This document shows positions 31,059 through 47,623 of a stretch of 64,000 bases of DNA, piece by piece. The notes under the pieces were generated by a model. It was not told the DNA's origin and did no database searches. It saw only the letters and a program-made list of their open reading frames with translations. The stretch spans positions 1,302,001 to 1,366,000 of the forward strand of contig CP085689.1 in NCBI GenBank assembly GCA_020683205.1. The letters run 5' to 3'. This DNA comes from Lentisphaerae bacterium WC36. GTDB taxonomy: Bacteria; Verrucomicrobiota; Lentisphaeria; Victivallales; SZUA-371. How positions within the stretch are numbered: position 1 is the first letter of the stretch; the number at the start of each line of letters is the position of its first letter. The position numbers and the translations under genes were made by a program.

Positions 31059-32780
31059 ATGAGTCGTATTGTAGACTGGACAAAGAATGAAAATTTAACT
31101 GTTGCGATCGCTTCTGACCACGGTGGTTTTGACGTAAAAGCAAAAGTTGTCGAATTTTGTAATAGTAAAAATTTAAACGTTGTAGACTGTGGACCTACTC
31201 TTTTTGATGCAGAGGATGATTATACAGATTTTGCAACAGTTGCTGCAAGAAAAGTTTCATTAGGTGAGGCTGATTGTGGTATTTTGATTTGCCGTTCAGG
31301 AGTTGGAATGGCTATTGCTGCAAATCGCTTTAATAATGTGCGTGCTGCATTATCAATTAAAGAAGTTGTTGCAGAAAAAAGTCGTGACCATAACTGTAGT
31401 AATGTGCTAGTTTTAGGTGCTGATGAATGTAGTGAAGAAGAGTTGTTTGCAATTATTGAAAAATGGTTTGCTACTCCTTTTGACGGAGGTGATCGTCACG
31501 TTCGTCGTTTGGAAAAAATTGAGGTTCAATCTTATGATGATATCGCAGCAATTCGCTCTGCGGATCCAGCTATTGCAAAAATTATTGATAAAGAGGCGGT
31601 TCGTCAAGATGAAGGTATCGAACTAATTGCGTCTGAAAATTTTACAAGTTGTGCAATTCGTGCGGCTCAAGGTAGTGTTTTAACGAACAAATATGCTGAA
31701 GGTTACCCTGGTAAACGTTACTACAATGGTTGCGAATATGTTGATGAAGCCGAACAATTAGCAATTGACAGAGCATGTGAATTATTTGGTGCTGAGGCTG
31801 CGAATGTTCAAGCTCACTCTGGTTCTCAAGCAAATATGGCTGCATATTTTGCGTTGGTTGAGCCAGGTGACACTGTTTTAGCAATGAGCTTAGATCATGG
31901 TGGTCACTTAACTCACGGTCACAAAATGAATTTCAGTGGTATGTTATACAATATCGTTGCTTACGGTGTAGATAAAGAAACTGAAGCTATTGACTATGAC
32001 GAAGTAGAGCGTTTAGCTTTAGAATGTAAACCAAAAATGATTGTTGCTGGTGCAAGTGCTTACCCTCGTGAGTTAAACTTCCCACGTTTACGTGAAATCG
32101 CTGATAAGGTTGATGCAAAATTATTTGTTGATATGGCTCACATTGCAGGTTTAGTTGCTGCTGGTGTTCACCCAAGTCCAGTTCCTTATGCTGATATTGT
32201 AACAAGTACTACTCACAAAACTTTACGTGGACCTCGTTCTGGTCTTATTCTTTGTAAGGAGGAGTATATTAAGAAGATTAATTCAAAAGTTTTCCCTGGC
32301 TTACAAGGTGGTCCTTTAATGCACGTTATTGCTGCAAAAGCAATCTGTTTCAAAGAAGCGATGAGTGAAGATTTCAAAACTTATCAGCAACAGGTTAAGT
32401 TAAATGCGGCGAAATTAGCTGATGAACTAGCTCAACGTGGTTATAGAATTTGCTCTGGTGGTACTGATAATCACTTATTATTGGTTGATTTACAGCCTAA
32501 AGGTGTAACGGGTAAAGAAGTTGCAACTATTTTAGACAAAGCAATGATTACTGTTAATAAAAATATGATTCCATTTGACCCAGCAAGCCCATTCGTAACA
32601 AGTGGTATTCGTATTGGTACACCAGCTGTTACAACTCGTGGTATGAAAGAAGCTGACATGGTGAATATCGCTGACTTTATTGATCGTGCTATTACTGCGG
32701 GCGATAATGAAGACGCATTAAAGTCAATTGCTAAAGAGGTATGTGAATTTACTCGTGCATTCCCAATGCCACAATTTTAA
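31059..32780 (+). CDS. glyA: Fused ribose-5-phosphate isomerase B and serine hydroxymethyltransferase
   Basis: A 573-residue fusion. Residues 14-150 are RpiB ([14 protein letters not shown], the catalytic-cysteine loop [27 protein letters not shown]), which interconverts ribose-5-P and ribulose-5-P. Residues 165-573 are a complete SHMT, which turns serine and tetrahydrofolate into glycine and methylene-THF: [20 protein letters not shown], the [13 protein letters not shown] aspartate region, and [13 protein letters not shown] with the PLP lysine at about K387. The RpiB loop has CRSG where CGTG is usual. GGAGGA precedes the ATG and no internal ribosome site is evident at the join. serS follows after 24 nt. 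Unfused rpiB and glyA are neighbours in many bacteria. Confidence 0.95.
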
Positions 32781-34257: not shown

Positions 34258-36126
34258 ATGCAAGCACAATTACAACAACAAAATGCAAGTTTAAAATTAG
34301 AAAATAATAATAATGTCATTAGTAATAAGATTGGTCGAGTCGTCGCATCACAAATTAGTTTTCCATTACCAAAAGTGACTGGACCTTTGTTAAAAAAAGT
34401 TTCTGGATTGAGAAAATTAGATCCGCTTTATAATGAAATTTTTGGCACAAATCAACCATTTAATCATAATTTTTTAGCACAAAAAATTCTTGACACCATG
34501 AATATCAATTTAGAGATTTCAGTCGAGCAGTTAGATCATATTCCTAAGGATGGTCCGTTGATTGTCGTTTCAAACCATCCATATGGAGGATTGGATGGAA
34601 TTGCGTTGCTGGCAATTTTAAAACGAGTGCGCCCAGATGTAAAATTAATGGCAAATTACTTATTAGGAGAAATTCCAAACTTAGAAAATGATTTGATTTC
34701 TGTTGACCCTTTTGAACATAAAAATTCATTAAAAAACAATCTTAATGGAATGCGTGAAGCAAAAAATTGGGTAAAAAATGGTCATGTTTTAGGTATTTTC
34801 CCTGCCGGTGAAGTTTCAAGCTATAAACGTCAAGAAAGACGAATTGCTGATAAAAAGTGGGCAACAAACATTGGTTCTTTGGTGAAAAAATCAAATTGCA
34901 GTGTTATTTGTATTAATTTTGATGGGCATAATAGAATGATGTTTCAATTAATGGGGTTGATTCATCCATCATTACGAACTTTGATTTTACCACGTGAATT
35001 TATGCATGTAGCTAACCATTCATTAAAAGTGAATATTAGTTCGGAAATTAAAGATAAGAAAATTGCCAAATTAAATAATTCTCAAGAAATAATTGATTAT
35101 TTGCGAATGCGTTGTGAAATTTTAGCTGAGAATATGGTTGCAAAGAAACGTCAAAATTATTCATTGAAGTTGTTGAAGTATTTTAAAGAACACGCAAAAA
35201 AACATGAGAAAATTGAAGAGATATGTGCACCAATAAATTCCGTATTAATTGCGGACGAGTTTGCAAAATTGCCAGCTCAAAAAGTTATGAAAAGTAGTGG
35301 GGATTACACTGTTTATTGCGTGGATTCTACTGATATTCCTAATGCATTGCAGGAATTGGGTCGATTGCGTGAAACAACTTTTCGAATTGTAGGCGAGGGG
35401 ACGAATAAAGCATGTGATTTAGATTGGCGAGATCATCACTATAAGCATTTGATTTTATGGAATAATGCGGAAAAGGAAATAGTTGGAGCATATCGTATGG
35501 GGTTGATTGATAAATTAGTTGAAGAATTTGGTTTTTCAGGAGTTTATACTTCAACATTATTTAAATTTTCAAAAAATATGAAAAAAGAATTGCATAATGC
35601 AATTGAATTAGGGCGTTCATTTATTCAACAGAAATATCAAAAAAATCCAATTGCCTTAGGGTTGTTATGGAAAGGAGTAATGGCATTTGTTGCTCAAAAT
35701 CCTCAGTATTGTAAATTGTTTGGTCCTGTGTCAATTAGTAATGATTATCAAGATTTAAGTAAGTTTATGATTATGGATTATTTAAAAAATAATCATTATA
35801 ATAGTGAATTAGCTTCGCAAATAAAAGCTAAACATCAACCTAAAATAAAAGTAAAAAATTTTAATTGCGCAGGTAAAACATTTTTAAGTTCAATAAATGA
35901 TATTGATGAATTAATTGCTGATATTGATCCAAAATGCCCTCATGCTCCAGTTTTGATTCGTCAATATATTCGTTTAAACGGAAAATTTTTATCATTTAAT
36001 ATTGACCCAGATTTTAATGACTCAATAGATGCGTTAATTTTAACTGATTTAAGAGAAAAATCTGCAACTACCAGTCGCTATATGGGAAAGGAAAAATATC
36101 AAAAATTTTTAGCAAAACACTCCTAA
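34258..36126 (+). CDS. olsF: OlsF-like bifunctional acyltransferase (PlsC-type plus OlsB-type domains)
   Basis: A 622-residue fusion. Residues 60-290 are a glycerolipid-type O-acyltransferase with VVSNHPYGGLDGIALL near 101 (the HP.GG.DG form of the catalytic histidine-aspartate motif) and GIFPAGEVSSY near 178. Residues 350-560 are a GNAT-like N-acyltransferase of the OlsB/hemolysin type (LGRLRETTFRIVGEG, LILWNNAEKEIVGAYRMG, ELGRSFIQQKYQKNP, FGPVSISNDY). The same order of domains is known in OlsF, which makes ornithine lipid from ornithine and two acyl chains. Another head group such as glycine is possible. It would act at the inner membrane. GAGG precedes the ATG. Confidence 0.8.
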   Translation: MQAQLQQQNASLKLENNNNVISNKIGRVVASQISFPLPKVTGPLLKKVSGLRKLDPLYNEIFGTNQPFNHNFLAQKILDTMNINLEISVEQLDHIPKDGPLIVVSNHPYGGLDGIALLAILKRVRPDVKLMANYLLGEIPNLENDLISVDPFEHKNSLKNNLNGMREAKNWVKNGHVLGIFPAGEVSSYKRQERRIADKKWATNIGSLVKKSNCSVICINFDGHNRMMFQLMGLIHPSLRTLILPREFMHVANHSLKVNISSEIKDKKIAKLNNSQEIIDYLRMRCEILAENMVAKKRQNYSLKLLKYFKEHAKKHEKIEEICAPINSVLIADEFAKLPAQKVMKSSGDYTVYCVDSTDIPNALQELGRLRETTFRIVGEGTNKACDLDWRDHHYKHLILWNNAEKEIVGAYRMGLIDKLVEEFGFSGVYTSTLFKFSKNMKKELHNAIELGRSFIQQKYQKNPIALGLLWKGVMAFVAQNPQYCKLFGPVSISNDYQDLSKFMIMDYLKNNHYNSELASQIKAKHQPKIKVKNFNCAGKTFLSSINDIDELIADIDPKCPHAPVLIRQYIRLNGKFLSFNIDPDFNDSIDALILTDLREKSATTSRYMGKEKYQKFLAKHS

Positions 36127-36463
36127 TAATTATATATACTATTCAAAAAAAAGGTGCAACTACAAGAGAGGGCGTAGTTGCACAATTAACACAAAATATG
36201 TTAAGGAAAAGTAATTAATTAAATTTAGCTCTTAAATAGACATTTTACAATAATATAAAATTATCAAAAATAATCATAAAGTTACTATTTTTTATCATGT
36301 TTGCCAATCTTATTTGTTATCAATACAAATTATATTTCTTTAAAAATAATAGTAAAAAGTAGTCATAAAAATTTTATAAATCGCTGTAGTGGCTATATAT
36401 TAACTTTCTTAAAGTAAAATAATTAATGTTTGATATTCCGGTAAATAAATAGGATACAGCGTT
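36127..36463. other. 337-bp intergenic region between the two acyltransferase-type genes
   Basis: It holds one stable hairpin near its left end (listed separately) and otherwise AT-rich DNA. No open frame or RNA gene was found. The promoter of the large hydrolase-acyltransferase gene is probably here but has no clear consensus. Confidence 0.5.
36154..36183 (-). terminator. Hairpin oriented as a minus-strand terminator
   Basis: A perfect 10-bp stem (GTGCAACTAC / GTAGTTGCAC) with a 10-nt loop. On the minus strand it is followed by eight Ts; on the plus strand it is preceded by As and followed by no T-run. Both neighbours are plus-strand genes, so the apparent orientation is odd. Confidence 0.5.
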
Positions 36464-39178
36464 TTGAAAAAAAATATTTTGAATATAAATAATTGTAAGC
36501 TTGCAGTCTATGAAGATGGCAAAGTCGATGGTGATATAATTTTATTTTTGCATGGATTTGGGTCGTATTCGTACACTTGGGAACGATTAATCCCGTTCTT
36601 AGCTCGAGATTATAAGATAGTTTGTATTGATTTAAAAGGCTTTGGAGCAAGTGAATGTGAAAACTCAGATACCCCAAATGTTAGCCCTCTTGATAATGTT
36701 AATTTAATTAAGGAGTTAATAGTTCAAAGAAATTACAAAAATATTAATATTGTTGGTCATTCTTTGGGTGGGCTGATTGCCTTTTTATTGGCTTTTGACG
36801 AAGAAATAAAGCCTAGAATTAACAAAATAAATTTAATTGCAAGTAGTGGATATTTTTACCATTTGCCTGATTTTATTAATGAATTACGTTCGACAGTTGC
36901 TAAGAAAATTTTTGTAAAATATTTGAGCAATGAAGTGTTGGTTAGGATCGTTCTTAATCAGTTAATATTCGATCGCACTAAAATTACTTCTGAAGATATT
37001 GAAAATTACGCAAAACCATTAAAAGTTAAAAATTCACGTCGTGTAATGATTGAAGCAGCCAAGCAAATTGACTTGGGAAATATTGCAATTAAGAAACAAA
37101 ATTTAGAGTCTTTAGATATTCCTATTTTAATCACTTGGGGAGAAAATGATAAATTTTTGAGTTTAGATGATGTTAAAAATATTACTCAAATTTTACCTTC
37201 ATGCCGAGTTGTTGCTATTAGTAATTGTGGTCATGCTCCCCAATTTGAAAAAAGTGATGAAACAGCGATTATTTTAAGATCATTTATTGAAGGGGCTTTA
37301 GAAAAAGTTACAAATTTTTACGAAGAAGAAAATTTAGAAAATCAACGATATTCATTATATAAATTCAAATATAATATTTCAGAAGGAGCAAGCGTTGATA
37401 ATGATGAAAAAATGACTGGAACAATTCATGATATTGTTTTAACTGCGTCTCAAAAAGAGCCTATCGATTGGGATTTTGGTAATAAAACTTCAATTACAAA
37501 TAAGGGGAAAATTGATCATGATATGCCAAAAGTTAAACTAAGAAATTTGGTAGATAAGTGGTCAATTTCAGTTTTTGTATTATTAGTTTTTTTGAAAATT
37601 TTACAAATAATGCGTAAAATTGGTTTTCGTGCTGAAGAAACTGGTTGGCGTAAAGCGACGGGAATTTATTTAAGAAATGAACATTCTAAATTTTGTTTGG
37701 CAACATTTAGACTTAAGATTCCACAAAATGTTAAATATAGTGAAAATTTAAAAATTTACGATCGTCAGTGTCAAAATATTATTCATAATTTAGCATATAT
37801 GATTCGCCGTACACCAGAGTTTCATTGGCGCTTAGATTGGAGATTATTTAGAGTTAAACGTCTTCGGCACTATTTTGTTGACATTGTGCAGGCTGAATAT
37901 GATGATAGCGGCAAATTAGTAGGGCTTGAAACATTTTTAGAAAATGAAAAACATACTTTTACAGGTATGAGTGATGAATTCAAAAAAGCAGGACTTAATG
38001 CTTTTATAAAATTTTACAATAAAAGTTTAAATTTACATGACAAACGTCGTCCAATGAAGTTAAAAAAAGATTTACATCGATGGATTAAAAAATTTAGACC
38101 TAAGTTAGCATTTTTACAACGTACTGAAATGCACGATTTTTTGATGCGTGTTATGAGTGCAACATTCATTAGCTTTGATGTTTTAGCAAAAGAAGATAAA
38201 AATTCTAAAATTCATAAAAATTATGAAAGATTAAGCACCCCATTGTTTTCAAAACTAAAACACCCTGGTGCAGGGTTATTGAATTTGAAATGTCGTTTAA
38301 CACATGATTTGCGAGAGGCTGATTTATGGTTTCAGTATCATCATATGCCAGTTGATGGGCAGCCGATGCAAGAAGTACTGGATAATTTAAAAAATCAGTG
38401 GGGTAGTTGGGGTGTTATTGAATTTCCAGTTACTCAATACTCTGAATGCAACAATGATAAGGGTGTTTGTTTAGAAGAAAGTAGTTTTAAAAATTATGAA
38501 ATATTTCAAACTGAAAGTTACGGTAGAAGTTTGTGGTATGGTCGATTTTTTGTAGATTTTTCTAAAATTTTAGAGTTAAGAAAGAAAATTAATGCTCAAT
38601 ATTATGATAAAATGGGTGGTAACTGCACATTAGTTGGGCTTTTAATTTGGGGAATGGGACAATTTCGAGAATATCACGACAAGAAATTTTTGATTCCTGT
38701 TGATTTACATGAACTAGAGGAGCATCATACTGAACGTGATTTAAGCTTGGTAGTTATAAGACCAACAAAATTTATCGATGAAACTAAAGATTTGGATGGT
38801 TTAGTTGAATTTCAGAGAGAATTCAATTTACGAATGCGTGCAACACAGTTAGGTTTAAGTGCAAGTTATGAATTAATTGAAATTTTTGCATTAAGTACAC
38901 CATTATTGTCAACACTGGTGCAGAGAATTTTGCCTAAGGCATTTTCTGAGTTTGTTGGGACAACGGGTGTTTCAGTTATTCGTAATGCAGAAGTTTTCGT
39001 TGCTCCATTGAGTGAATTTCATTCTGATGGATTTATTGCTGTAGGTAATGTGTCGATGCCGTGTTCAAATGGGTCTTTGTGCGGTTCGGTGAGTGTAAGA
39101 GGATCTCAACAGCGTGTAGAGCATTTTTATTCGATAGTTGGTAAAGTTTTAGATTATTATGACAAGTTAGAAATTTAA
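36464..39178 (+). CDS. Fusion of alpha/beta hydrolase and HHxxxDG condensation-type acyltransferase
   Basis: A 904-residue protein. Residues 22-290 are a full alpha/beta hydrolase: LHGFGSYSYTW oxyanion loop at 29, nucleophile S100 in VGHSLGG, acid in TWGENDKFLS near 227 and histidine in NCGHAPQFE near 258. A linker with a hydrophobic segment (SISVFVLLVFLKILQIM, about 365-382) leads to residues 395-900, a large domain carrying HHMPVDG (H626-H627...D631-G632). That is the HHxxxDG catalytic motif of the condensation/chloramphenicol acetyltransferase superfamily. Together they suggest transfer and release of an acyl group. The start is TTG with AGGA 9 nt before it; an in-frame stop lies just upstream. 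Substrate unknown. Confidence 0.75.
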   Translation: MKKNILNINNCKLAVYEDGKVDGDIILFLHGFGSYSYTWERLIPFLARDYKIVCIDLKGFGASECENSDTPNVSPLDNVNLIKELIVQRNYKNINIVGHSLGGLIAFLLAFDEEIKPRINKINLIASSGYFYHLPDFINELRSTVAKKIFVKYLSNEVLVRIVLNQLIFDRTKITSEDIENYAKPLKVKNSRRVMIEAAKQIDLGNIAIKKQNLESLDIPILITWGENDKFLSLDDVKNITQILPSCRVVAISNCGHAPQFEKSDETAIILRSFIEGALEKVTNFYEEENLENQRYSLYKFKYNISEGASVDNDEKMTGTIHDIVLTASQKEPIDWDFGNKTSITNKGKIDHDMPKVKLRNLVDKWSISVFVLLVFLKILQIMRKIGFRAEETGWRKATGIYLRNEHSKFCLATFRLKIPQNVKYSENLKIYDRQCQNIIHNLAYMIRRTPEFHWRLDWRLFRVKRLRHYFVDIVQAEYDDSGKLVGLETFLENEKHTFTGMSDEFKKAGLNAFIKFYNKSLNLHDKRRPMKLKKDLHRWIKKFRPKLAFLQRTEMHDFLMRVMSATFISFDVLAKEDKNSKIHKNYERLSTPLFSKLKHPGAGLLNLKCRLTHDLREADLWFQYHHMPVDGQPMQEVLDNLKNQWGSWGVIEFPVTQYSECNNDKGVCLEESSFKNYEIFQTESYGRSLWYGRFFVDFSKILELRKKINAQYYDKMGGNCTLVGLLIWGMGQFREYHDKKFLIPVDLHELEEHHTERDLSLVVIRPTKFIDETKDLDGLVEFQREFNLRMRATQLGLSASYELIEIFALSTPLLSTLVQRILPKAFSEFVGTTGVSVIRNAEVFVAPLSEFHSDGFIAVGNVSMPCSNGSLCGSVSVRGSQQRVEHFYSIVGKVLDYYDKLEI

Positions 39179-47184: not shown

Positions 47185-47258
47185 GCGAGTATGGCATATC
47201 GGTTGTGCACCAGCCTTCCAAGCTGGTTAGAGGGGTTCGACTCCCCTTACTCGCTCCA
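47185..47258 (+). tRNA. tRNA-Gly (UCC), copy 1
   Basis: A full cloverleaf: acceptor stem GCGAGTA/TACTCGC, D arm GCAT/GTGC, anticodon stem CCAGC/GCTGG with loop CTTCCAA (anticodon UCC), T arm AGGGG/CCCCT with loop TTCGACT, discriminator U and an encoded CCA. It is followed by tRNA-Tyr after 3 nt. Confidence 0.97.
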
Positions 47259-47261
47259 TGT

Positions 47262-47346
47262 GGTGGGATTCCCGAGCGGCCAAAGGGGGCAGACTGTAAA
47301 TCTGCTGCGGAATGCTTCGGTGGTTCGAATCCACCTCCCACCACCA
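47262..47346 (+). tRNA. tRNA-Tyr (GUA), copy 1
   Basis: A class II tRNA of 85 nt with acceptor stem GGTGGGA/TCCCACC, anticodon stem GCAGA/TCTGC with loop CTGTAAA (anticodon GUA), a long variable arm (TGCGGAATGCTTCGG region) and T loop TTCGAAT. A73 and CCA are encoded. Confidence 0.97.
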
Positions 47347-47440
47347 TTTTTTTTCTTAACTAAATTCGTTGTAGCTCATAAAATTGTTTATTAAAAGATT
47401 GAGTTTTTCAACCTGTAATATGCAATGACTCAAGATTAGT

Positions 47441-47514
47441 GCGAGTATGGCATATCGGTTGTGCACCAGCCTTCCAAGCTGGTTAGAGGGGTTCGACTCC
47501 CCTTACTCGCTCCA
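47441..47514 (+). tRNA. tRNA-Gly (UCC), copy 2
   Basis: This is identical, base for base, to the tRNA-Gly at 47185, including CCA. It lies 94 nt after the first tRNA-Tyr and 24 nt before the second. Confidence 0.97.
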
Positions 47515-47538
47515 TTTTTTAATATGAATTATACTTTT

Positions 47539-47623
47539 GGTGGGATTCCCGAGCGGCCAAAGGGGGCAGACTGTAAATCTGCTGCGGAATGCTTCGGTGG
47601 TTCGAATCCACCTCCCACCACCA
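47539..47623 (+). tRNA. tRNA-Tyr (GUA), copy 2
   Basis: This is identical, base for base, to the tRNA-Tyr at 47262. The flanking bases differ, so identity stops at the tRNA ends. hpt follows 36 nt later. Confidence 0.97.

Follow-up and report, generated by a model that had tools for sequence, protein, structure and literature searches.

Catalysis by WS/DGAT enzymes has been assigned to the second histidine of their motif, and archaeal wax ester synthases in which that motif reads NHXXXDG appear functional (PMC11948995). Acyl groups are reduced in Synechococcus by an acyl-ACP reductase whose catalytic residue is Cys294 (PMC9743570). OlsI of planctomycetes, a protein of the alpha/beta-hydrolase fold, O-acylates ornithine lipid (PMC12493201); it is encoded in one operon together with OlsH, and no CAT domain has been described for it.

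Here we analyzed a stretch of 64,000 nucleotides from Lentisphaerae bacterium WC36 (the window) which carries a gene joining an alpha/beta-hydrolase to a C-terminal domain of the CAT superfamily (C-domain). We propose, with a probability of about 0.5 for the reading as a whole, that the product of this gene is an acyltransferase which forms lipid esters, belongs to an undescribed family of the CAT superfamily and is fused to a hydrolase of the esterase/lipase type; the C-domain is best read as wax-ester-synthase-like in its logic, though not as a member of WS/DGAT. The family so defined has no name, occurs in about half of one order, nearly always in single copy and with clear genetic partners, and its two carrier phyla are ones whose lipids are poorly known.

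Two further features of the window were recorded: the frame at 31059-32780 (+), of 573 aa, looks by reading like a fusion of ribose-5-phosphate isomerase B and serine hydroxymethyltransferase, and a tRNA-Gly(tcc)/tRNA-Tyr(gta) pair is duplicated in tandem at 47185-47623 (+).

The fused gene and its domains

The frame is single and uninterrupted, with a TTG start. Since independent genomes carry the fusion, with C-domain identities of 32-43% and open frames mostly of ~820-910 aa, the fusion is neither a random reading frame nor a product of misassembly; these genomes belong mainly to Lentisphaerota. The joining of a hydrolase to a HHMPVDG domain, which had been proposed from the sequence alone, is thus real, and so is the complete Ser-Asp-His hydrolase claimed by the same reading, the residues S100, D229 and H257 being intact in the window's protein.

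Table 1. Positions of the fused gene, its parts and related features (window coordinates unless a locus is named)
Feature	Residues	Position	Strand	Basis or remark
Fused gene, alpha/beta-hydrolase and CAT-superfamily acyltransferase	904 aa	36464-39178	+	open frame; fusion kept in relatives
Alpha/beta-hydrolase domain	2-280	36467-37303	+	PF00561 E 5e-24; Foldseek matches
Nucleophile elbow GHSLGG (S100)	98-103	36755-36772	+	Ser in 33/38 complete fusions
Triad acid	D229	37148-37150	+	29/30 aligned relatives, remaining one a gap
Triad histidine	H257	37232-37234	+	29/30 aligned relatives, remaining one a gap
Linker, mostly disordered	281-357	37304-37534	+	low pLDDT; length differs between relatives
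CAT-superfamily C-domain	358-904 (547 aa)	37535-39175	+	AlphaFold2 model; CAT-superfamily structure matches
Hydrophobic first helix of C-domain	366-388	37559-37627	+	both models; hydropathy; conservation
HHMPVDG motif, catalytic candidate H627	626-632	38339-38359	+	invariant residues in relatives
OlsF-like bifunctional acyltransferase		34258-36126	+	NF052615 E 8e-115, 385 bits vs cut-off 620
Hairpin		36154-36183		eleven pairs; T-run on minus strand
LCAT-like lipoprotein gene, window's genome		G000:C1:3336763-3338229		
Lipoprotein, Omnitrophota L196		3105-4577		same strand as next two
Reductase, Omnitrophota L196		4706-5887		
Fusion, Omnitrophota L196		5978-8491		
Stand-alone C-domain, Archangium L104		2073-3665		

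The N-terminal domain is an alpha/beta-hydrolase by its triad and by the match of residues 25-263 to Abhydrolase_1 (PF00561; 85.7 bits against a cut-off of 25.8), and Foldseek placed it with BphD/CumD-type hydrolases as well as with the monoacylglycerol lipase ABHD6 and the phospholipase A PlaF. The domain is accessory: several lineages have either lost it or replaced its nucleophile. Of 38 complete fusions, 5 have Gly or Phe in place of the nucleophile Ser, with an intact CAT motif; the tested genomes of genera g26 and g30 were without a close fusion-type hydrolase, and in G022 the hydrolase is a separate gene. In a FastTree tree these losses fall inside the Lentisphaerota clade, which argues for descent from a fused ancestor.

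Four of the fusions (L090, L094, L095 and L097) keep the rest of the hydrolase domain and have Gly as nucleophile, and are therefore probably hydrolase-dead; a gene for the LCAT-like lipoprotein described below adjoins at least three of them.

From 46 aligned sequences AlphaFold2 built a model of the full protein with two domains (mean pLDDT 80.6), for which the Foldseek matches were swamped by hydrolases; the C-domain was therefore modelled separately (pLDDT 85.8, pTM 0.88). With this second model all top matches from Foldseek and VIA-align were CAT-superfamily chains, the closest at full length being choline/carnitine acyltransferases (Z up to 17.1 over ~420 residues), followed by NRPS condensation domains (Z up to 15.5), the wax ester synthase/DGAT 6chj (Z 13.7, 318 residues), E2 acyltransferases (Z ~13) and PapA5 (Z 12.9); CAT-fold proteins other than plain acyltransferases (CER2, AzeD dehydratase and epimerization domains) were matched as well. 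H627, D631 and G632 were invariant in all 57 relatives compared, from several phyla, and position 626 was S, N or Q in 14 of them and H in the rest. By its predicted fold and by HxxxDG with its invariant histidine, the C-domain is a member of the CAT superfamily, in agreement with the CAT/condensation fold expected by the sequence-only reading.

That reading also knew of no named family for the C-domain, and this held: the window's C-domain had no match among Pfam, NCBIfam or PDB sequence profiles, a PDB sequence search with it gave nothing meaningful, and literature searches for the family gave nothing. Condensation (PF00668) matched weakly in 2 of 46 members (best E 0.002) and not in the window's protein, and a profile comparison with the condensation domain of E. 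coli EntF aligned at the motif and nowhere else.

The hydrophobic linker described earlier turned out differently: the linker is predicted to be disordered (~285-354; pLDDT <50 at 285-298 and 301-354 in the full model), and the hydrophobic stretch is the first helix of the C-domain. This helix (best 19-residue hydropathy 1.93) was placed with high confidence, its residues W366, K378 and Q381 are highly conserved, and contact with the membrane is possible.

Distribution and gene neighbourhoods

Within the window's order (Lentisphaerota, Victivallales) the C-domain was found in 52 of 100 genomes, mostly fused and nearly always in single copy, and no biosynthetic cluster surrounds it; a sample of the phylum (288 genomes) had 38 carriers, all from this order. 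Named records, among them Victivallis vadensis DSM 14823 (L086), are mainly of Lentisphaerota (Victivallales), with a few under other labels such as Kiritimatiellota. Outside, the C-domain occurs in 10 of 285 Omnitrophota, in one Dehalococcoidia MAG and in one Archangium MAG, the latter being the only match among 195 genomes of its phylum. FastTree placed the match in a Desulfomonile MAG (L099) within a branch of Lentisphaerota; it may stem from wrong binning. The Archangium copy is a stand-alone C-domain lying right behind a polyketide-synthase-type ketoreductase protein and ahead of a P450.

Upstream of the fused gene, 337 bp apart, lies an OlsF-like gene, with a hairpin between the two, just 3' of the OlsF-like gene. 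Its product is, judging from its profile match, a relative of OlsF, probably for an amino lipid. The two genes had been taken for a pair, and this pairing was not sustained: in a whole-genome search OlsF-like matches were found in 3 of 100 genomes of the order, the window's own counted, and the other two cover the N-terminal half only and lie away from the fusion. Adjacency is thus not conserved, and the OlsF-like gene was rejected as functional partner and is regarded as an incidental neighbour. It was perhaps acquired horizontally, as a full-length copy is absent from all the others of the 100 genomes.

Clustering of neighbour genes yielded a single recurrent partner. It encodes a predicted ~500-aa lipoprotein with LCAT-like sequence (PF02450) and adjoins the C-domain gene in about 15 loci. 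Among the 100 genomes both were present in 49, the C-domain only in 3, the lipoprotein only in 1 and neither in 47, so that 49 of the 53 genomes having either one have both (Fisher p 2e-23 by genome and 3e-11 by genus, values which partly ignore shared ancestry). In variable genera the two are mostly present or missing jointly, fully so in genera 19 and 32 and in 5 of 7 genomes of genus 5. The lipoprotein gene and the fusion of the window's genome are about 2 Mb apart. The lipoprotein shares with the LCAT family the PF02450 match (up to E 4.6e-9), a nucleophile elbow (HSMGG) and a His motif at the C-terminal end, both conserved, and differs in being a ~500-aa predicted bacterial lipoprotein of putative function; no solved structure is clearly related to it (best PDB E 1.5e-4). 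The LCAT-like lipoprotein is the conserved genetic partner of the C-domain in the window's order, and none of the other gene families tested tracks the C-domain as it does.

Three other links were examined and rejected. The nearest thioester reductase in Victivallales is present in 91 of 100 genomes irrespective of the C-domain, and none lies beside the fusion there; a dehydratase marker of polyketide synthases was found in 2 of 100 genomes; and the C-terminal domain of squalene-hopene cyclase, as a sign of hopanoids, was found in 13 of 60 genomes with weak scores, and not in the window's genome.

The loci of Omnitrophota are of two architectures. Four genomes have the same hydrolase with the C-domain, fused in three and as neighbouring genes in one, and in 4/4 of these loci a PF07993 gene of the "male sterility"/thioester-reductase type, related to TIGR01746 below its cut-off, is adjacent or a few genes off; in L196 lipoprotein, reductase and fusion follow one another. 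In the second architecture an SDR (HpnA-like) takes the place of the hydrolase, fused to or beside the C-domain, and 5/5 such loci (L191, L192, L194, L195 and L197) encode a fusion of an SRPBCC domain with an acyl-ACP reductase of the cyanobacterial type (PDB 6jzq, E 2e-50; a TIGR04058 relative, below cut-off), the invariant Cys464 of which aligns with Cys294 of the Synechococcus enzyme. Acyl reductases beside an ester-forming fold follow the logic of wax ester synthesis.

Proposed ester formation and its alternatives

In the mechanism we propose, H627 would be the general base, and the C-domain would probably transfer a long acyl chain, donated by acyl-ACP or acyl-CoA, to a hydrophobic alcohol, acylating its hydroxyl at the cytoplasmic membrane; the hydrolase domain may edit or turn over the resulting ester, and the LCAT-like lipoprotein could act in the cell envelope, either on this lipid or on one linked to it. 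In Omnitrophota the alcohol would probably be a fatty alcohol provided by the neighbouring acyl-thioester reductases, with a wax-ester-like product; as the SDR is HpnA-like, this alcohol could be something other than a simple fatty alcohol.

Several lines of evidence support an ester synthase: the CAT fold with its full-length match to carnitine/choline acyltransferases and its matches to 6chj and PapA5; the invariance of HxxxDG together with a variable first histidine, as in the functional archaeal enzymes; the linkage to the LCAT-like lipoprotein; and the acyl reductases in every Omnitrophota locus of both architectures. Against it, reductases in Victivallales do not follow the C-domain in their occurrence, and the WS/DGAT profiles are without a match among the sequences searched. 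Of the earlier suggestion that an unusual acylated lipid is assembled together with the OlsF-like protein, or that the fusion makes and edits an ester, the formation of an ester or lipid stands as the best reading while the pairing was dropped.

A wider proposal is put forward tentatively, that Lentisphaerota and Omnitrophota have an independently evolved wax/lipid-ester pathway with a carnitine-acyltransferase-shaped synthase, a fused hydrolase, a supply from acyl-ACP/thioester reductases and a coupling to the LCAT-like protein in the envelope. If true, it would combine ester synthesis with LCAT-type remodelling in bacteria; the linked lipoprotein suggests that ester chemistry takes place at the envelope of the bacteria.

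Alternatively, the C-domain could O-acylate a phospho-, amino- or glycolipid, with no wax ester in Lentisphaerota; the hydrolase would then either deacylate or act as a second, OlsI-like acyltransferase, with the remodelling of membrane lipids completed in the envelope by the LCAT-like lipoprotein. The tight link to this lipoprotein fits such a scheme, as do the occurrence of PlaF and ABHD6 among the structural matches of the hydrolase, the absence in Victivallales of a fatty-alcohol-forming gene that tracks the C-domain, and the weak match of the window's hydrolase to the OlsI model (E 1.5e-11); this last score is, however, 44 bits, far under the cut-off of 385, and the acyl-thioester reductases beside the C-domain of Omnitrophota are left unexplained. 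We consider remodelling somewhat unlikely overall; because thioester reductases in Victivallales are present regardless of the C-domain, it stays a serious rival in that order.

A role in secondary metabolism, in which the C-domain would release or decorate a polyketide or peptide, is improbable: PapA5 and condensation domains are among its CAT-fold matches and the setting of the Archangium copy is suggestive, but polyketide dehydratase domains are rare in the related genomes and the C-domain is widespread in the order, nearly always in single copy and outside any biosynthetic cluster. Slightly less probable still is a C-domain that only binds acyl chains, with the hydrolase as sole enzyme, which the matches to CER2, AzeD dehydratase and epimerization domains would allow and against which stands the CAT motif, kept more strictly (57/57) than the hydrolase nucleophile (lost in 5/38) or the hydrolase domain as a whole.

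Comparison with known families

The hydrolase shares with OlsI its fold class and the weak profile match, and OlsI acylates a lipid in bacteria of a related superphylum (PMC12493201); its low score keeps the two apart.

With NRPS condensation domains and PapA5 the C-domain shares the CAT fold and HHxxxDG; unlike NRPS proteins, the fusion and its usual neighbourhood are devoid of carrier and adenylation domains, and PF00668 did not reach its cut-off. ChAT, CrAT, COT and CPT2 are the best full-length structure matches (Z 14.5-17, ~420 residues, N-terminal helix included), and the overall fold agrees over model residues 1-547 (Z ~17); they differ in their identity of ~10%, the fused hydrolase and the gene partners, and none of 46 members matched the carnitine/choline acyltransferase Pfam profile at E up to 1.

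WS/DGAT (6chj) has in common with the C-domain the CAT fold, the [H/N]HxxxDG motif with its invariant second histidine and, in Omnitrophota, the reductase partners, which are adjacent there and unlinked in Victivallales. It differs in that its Pfam and NCBIfam profiles matched neither the full protein nor the stand-alone relatives nor the 46 C-domains, in that carnitine/choline acyltransferases give the better alignment over the first helix and N-terminal region of the C-domain, and in the fused hydrolase and LCAT-like partner of the window's protein. As the profile tests of WS/DGAT, carnitine/choline acyltransferases and NRPS condensation domains failed, the C-domain is kept apart from these three families on sequence grounds. 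It may well work like WS/DGAT, and if wax-like esters are made it would form its own class of ester synthase, distinct from WS/DGAT.
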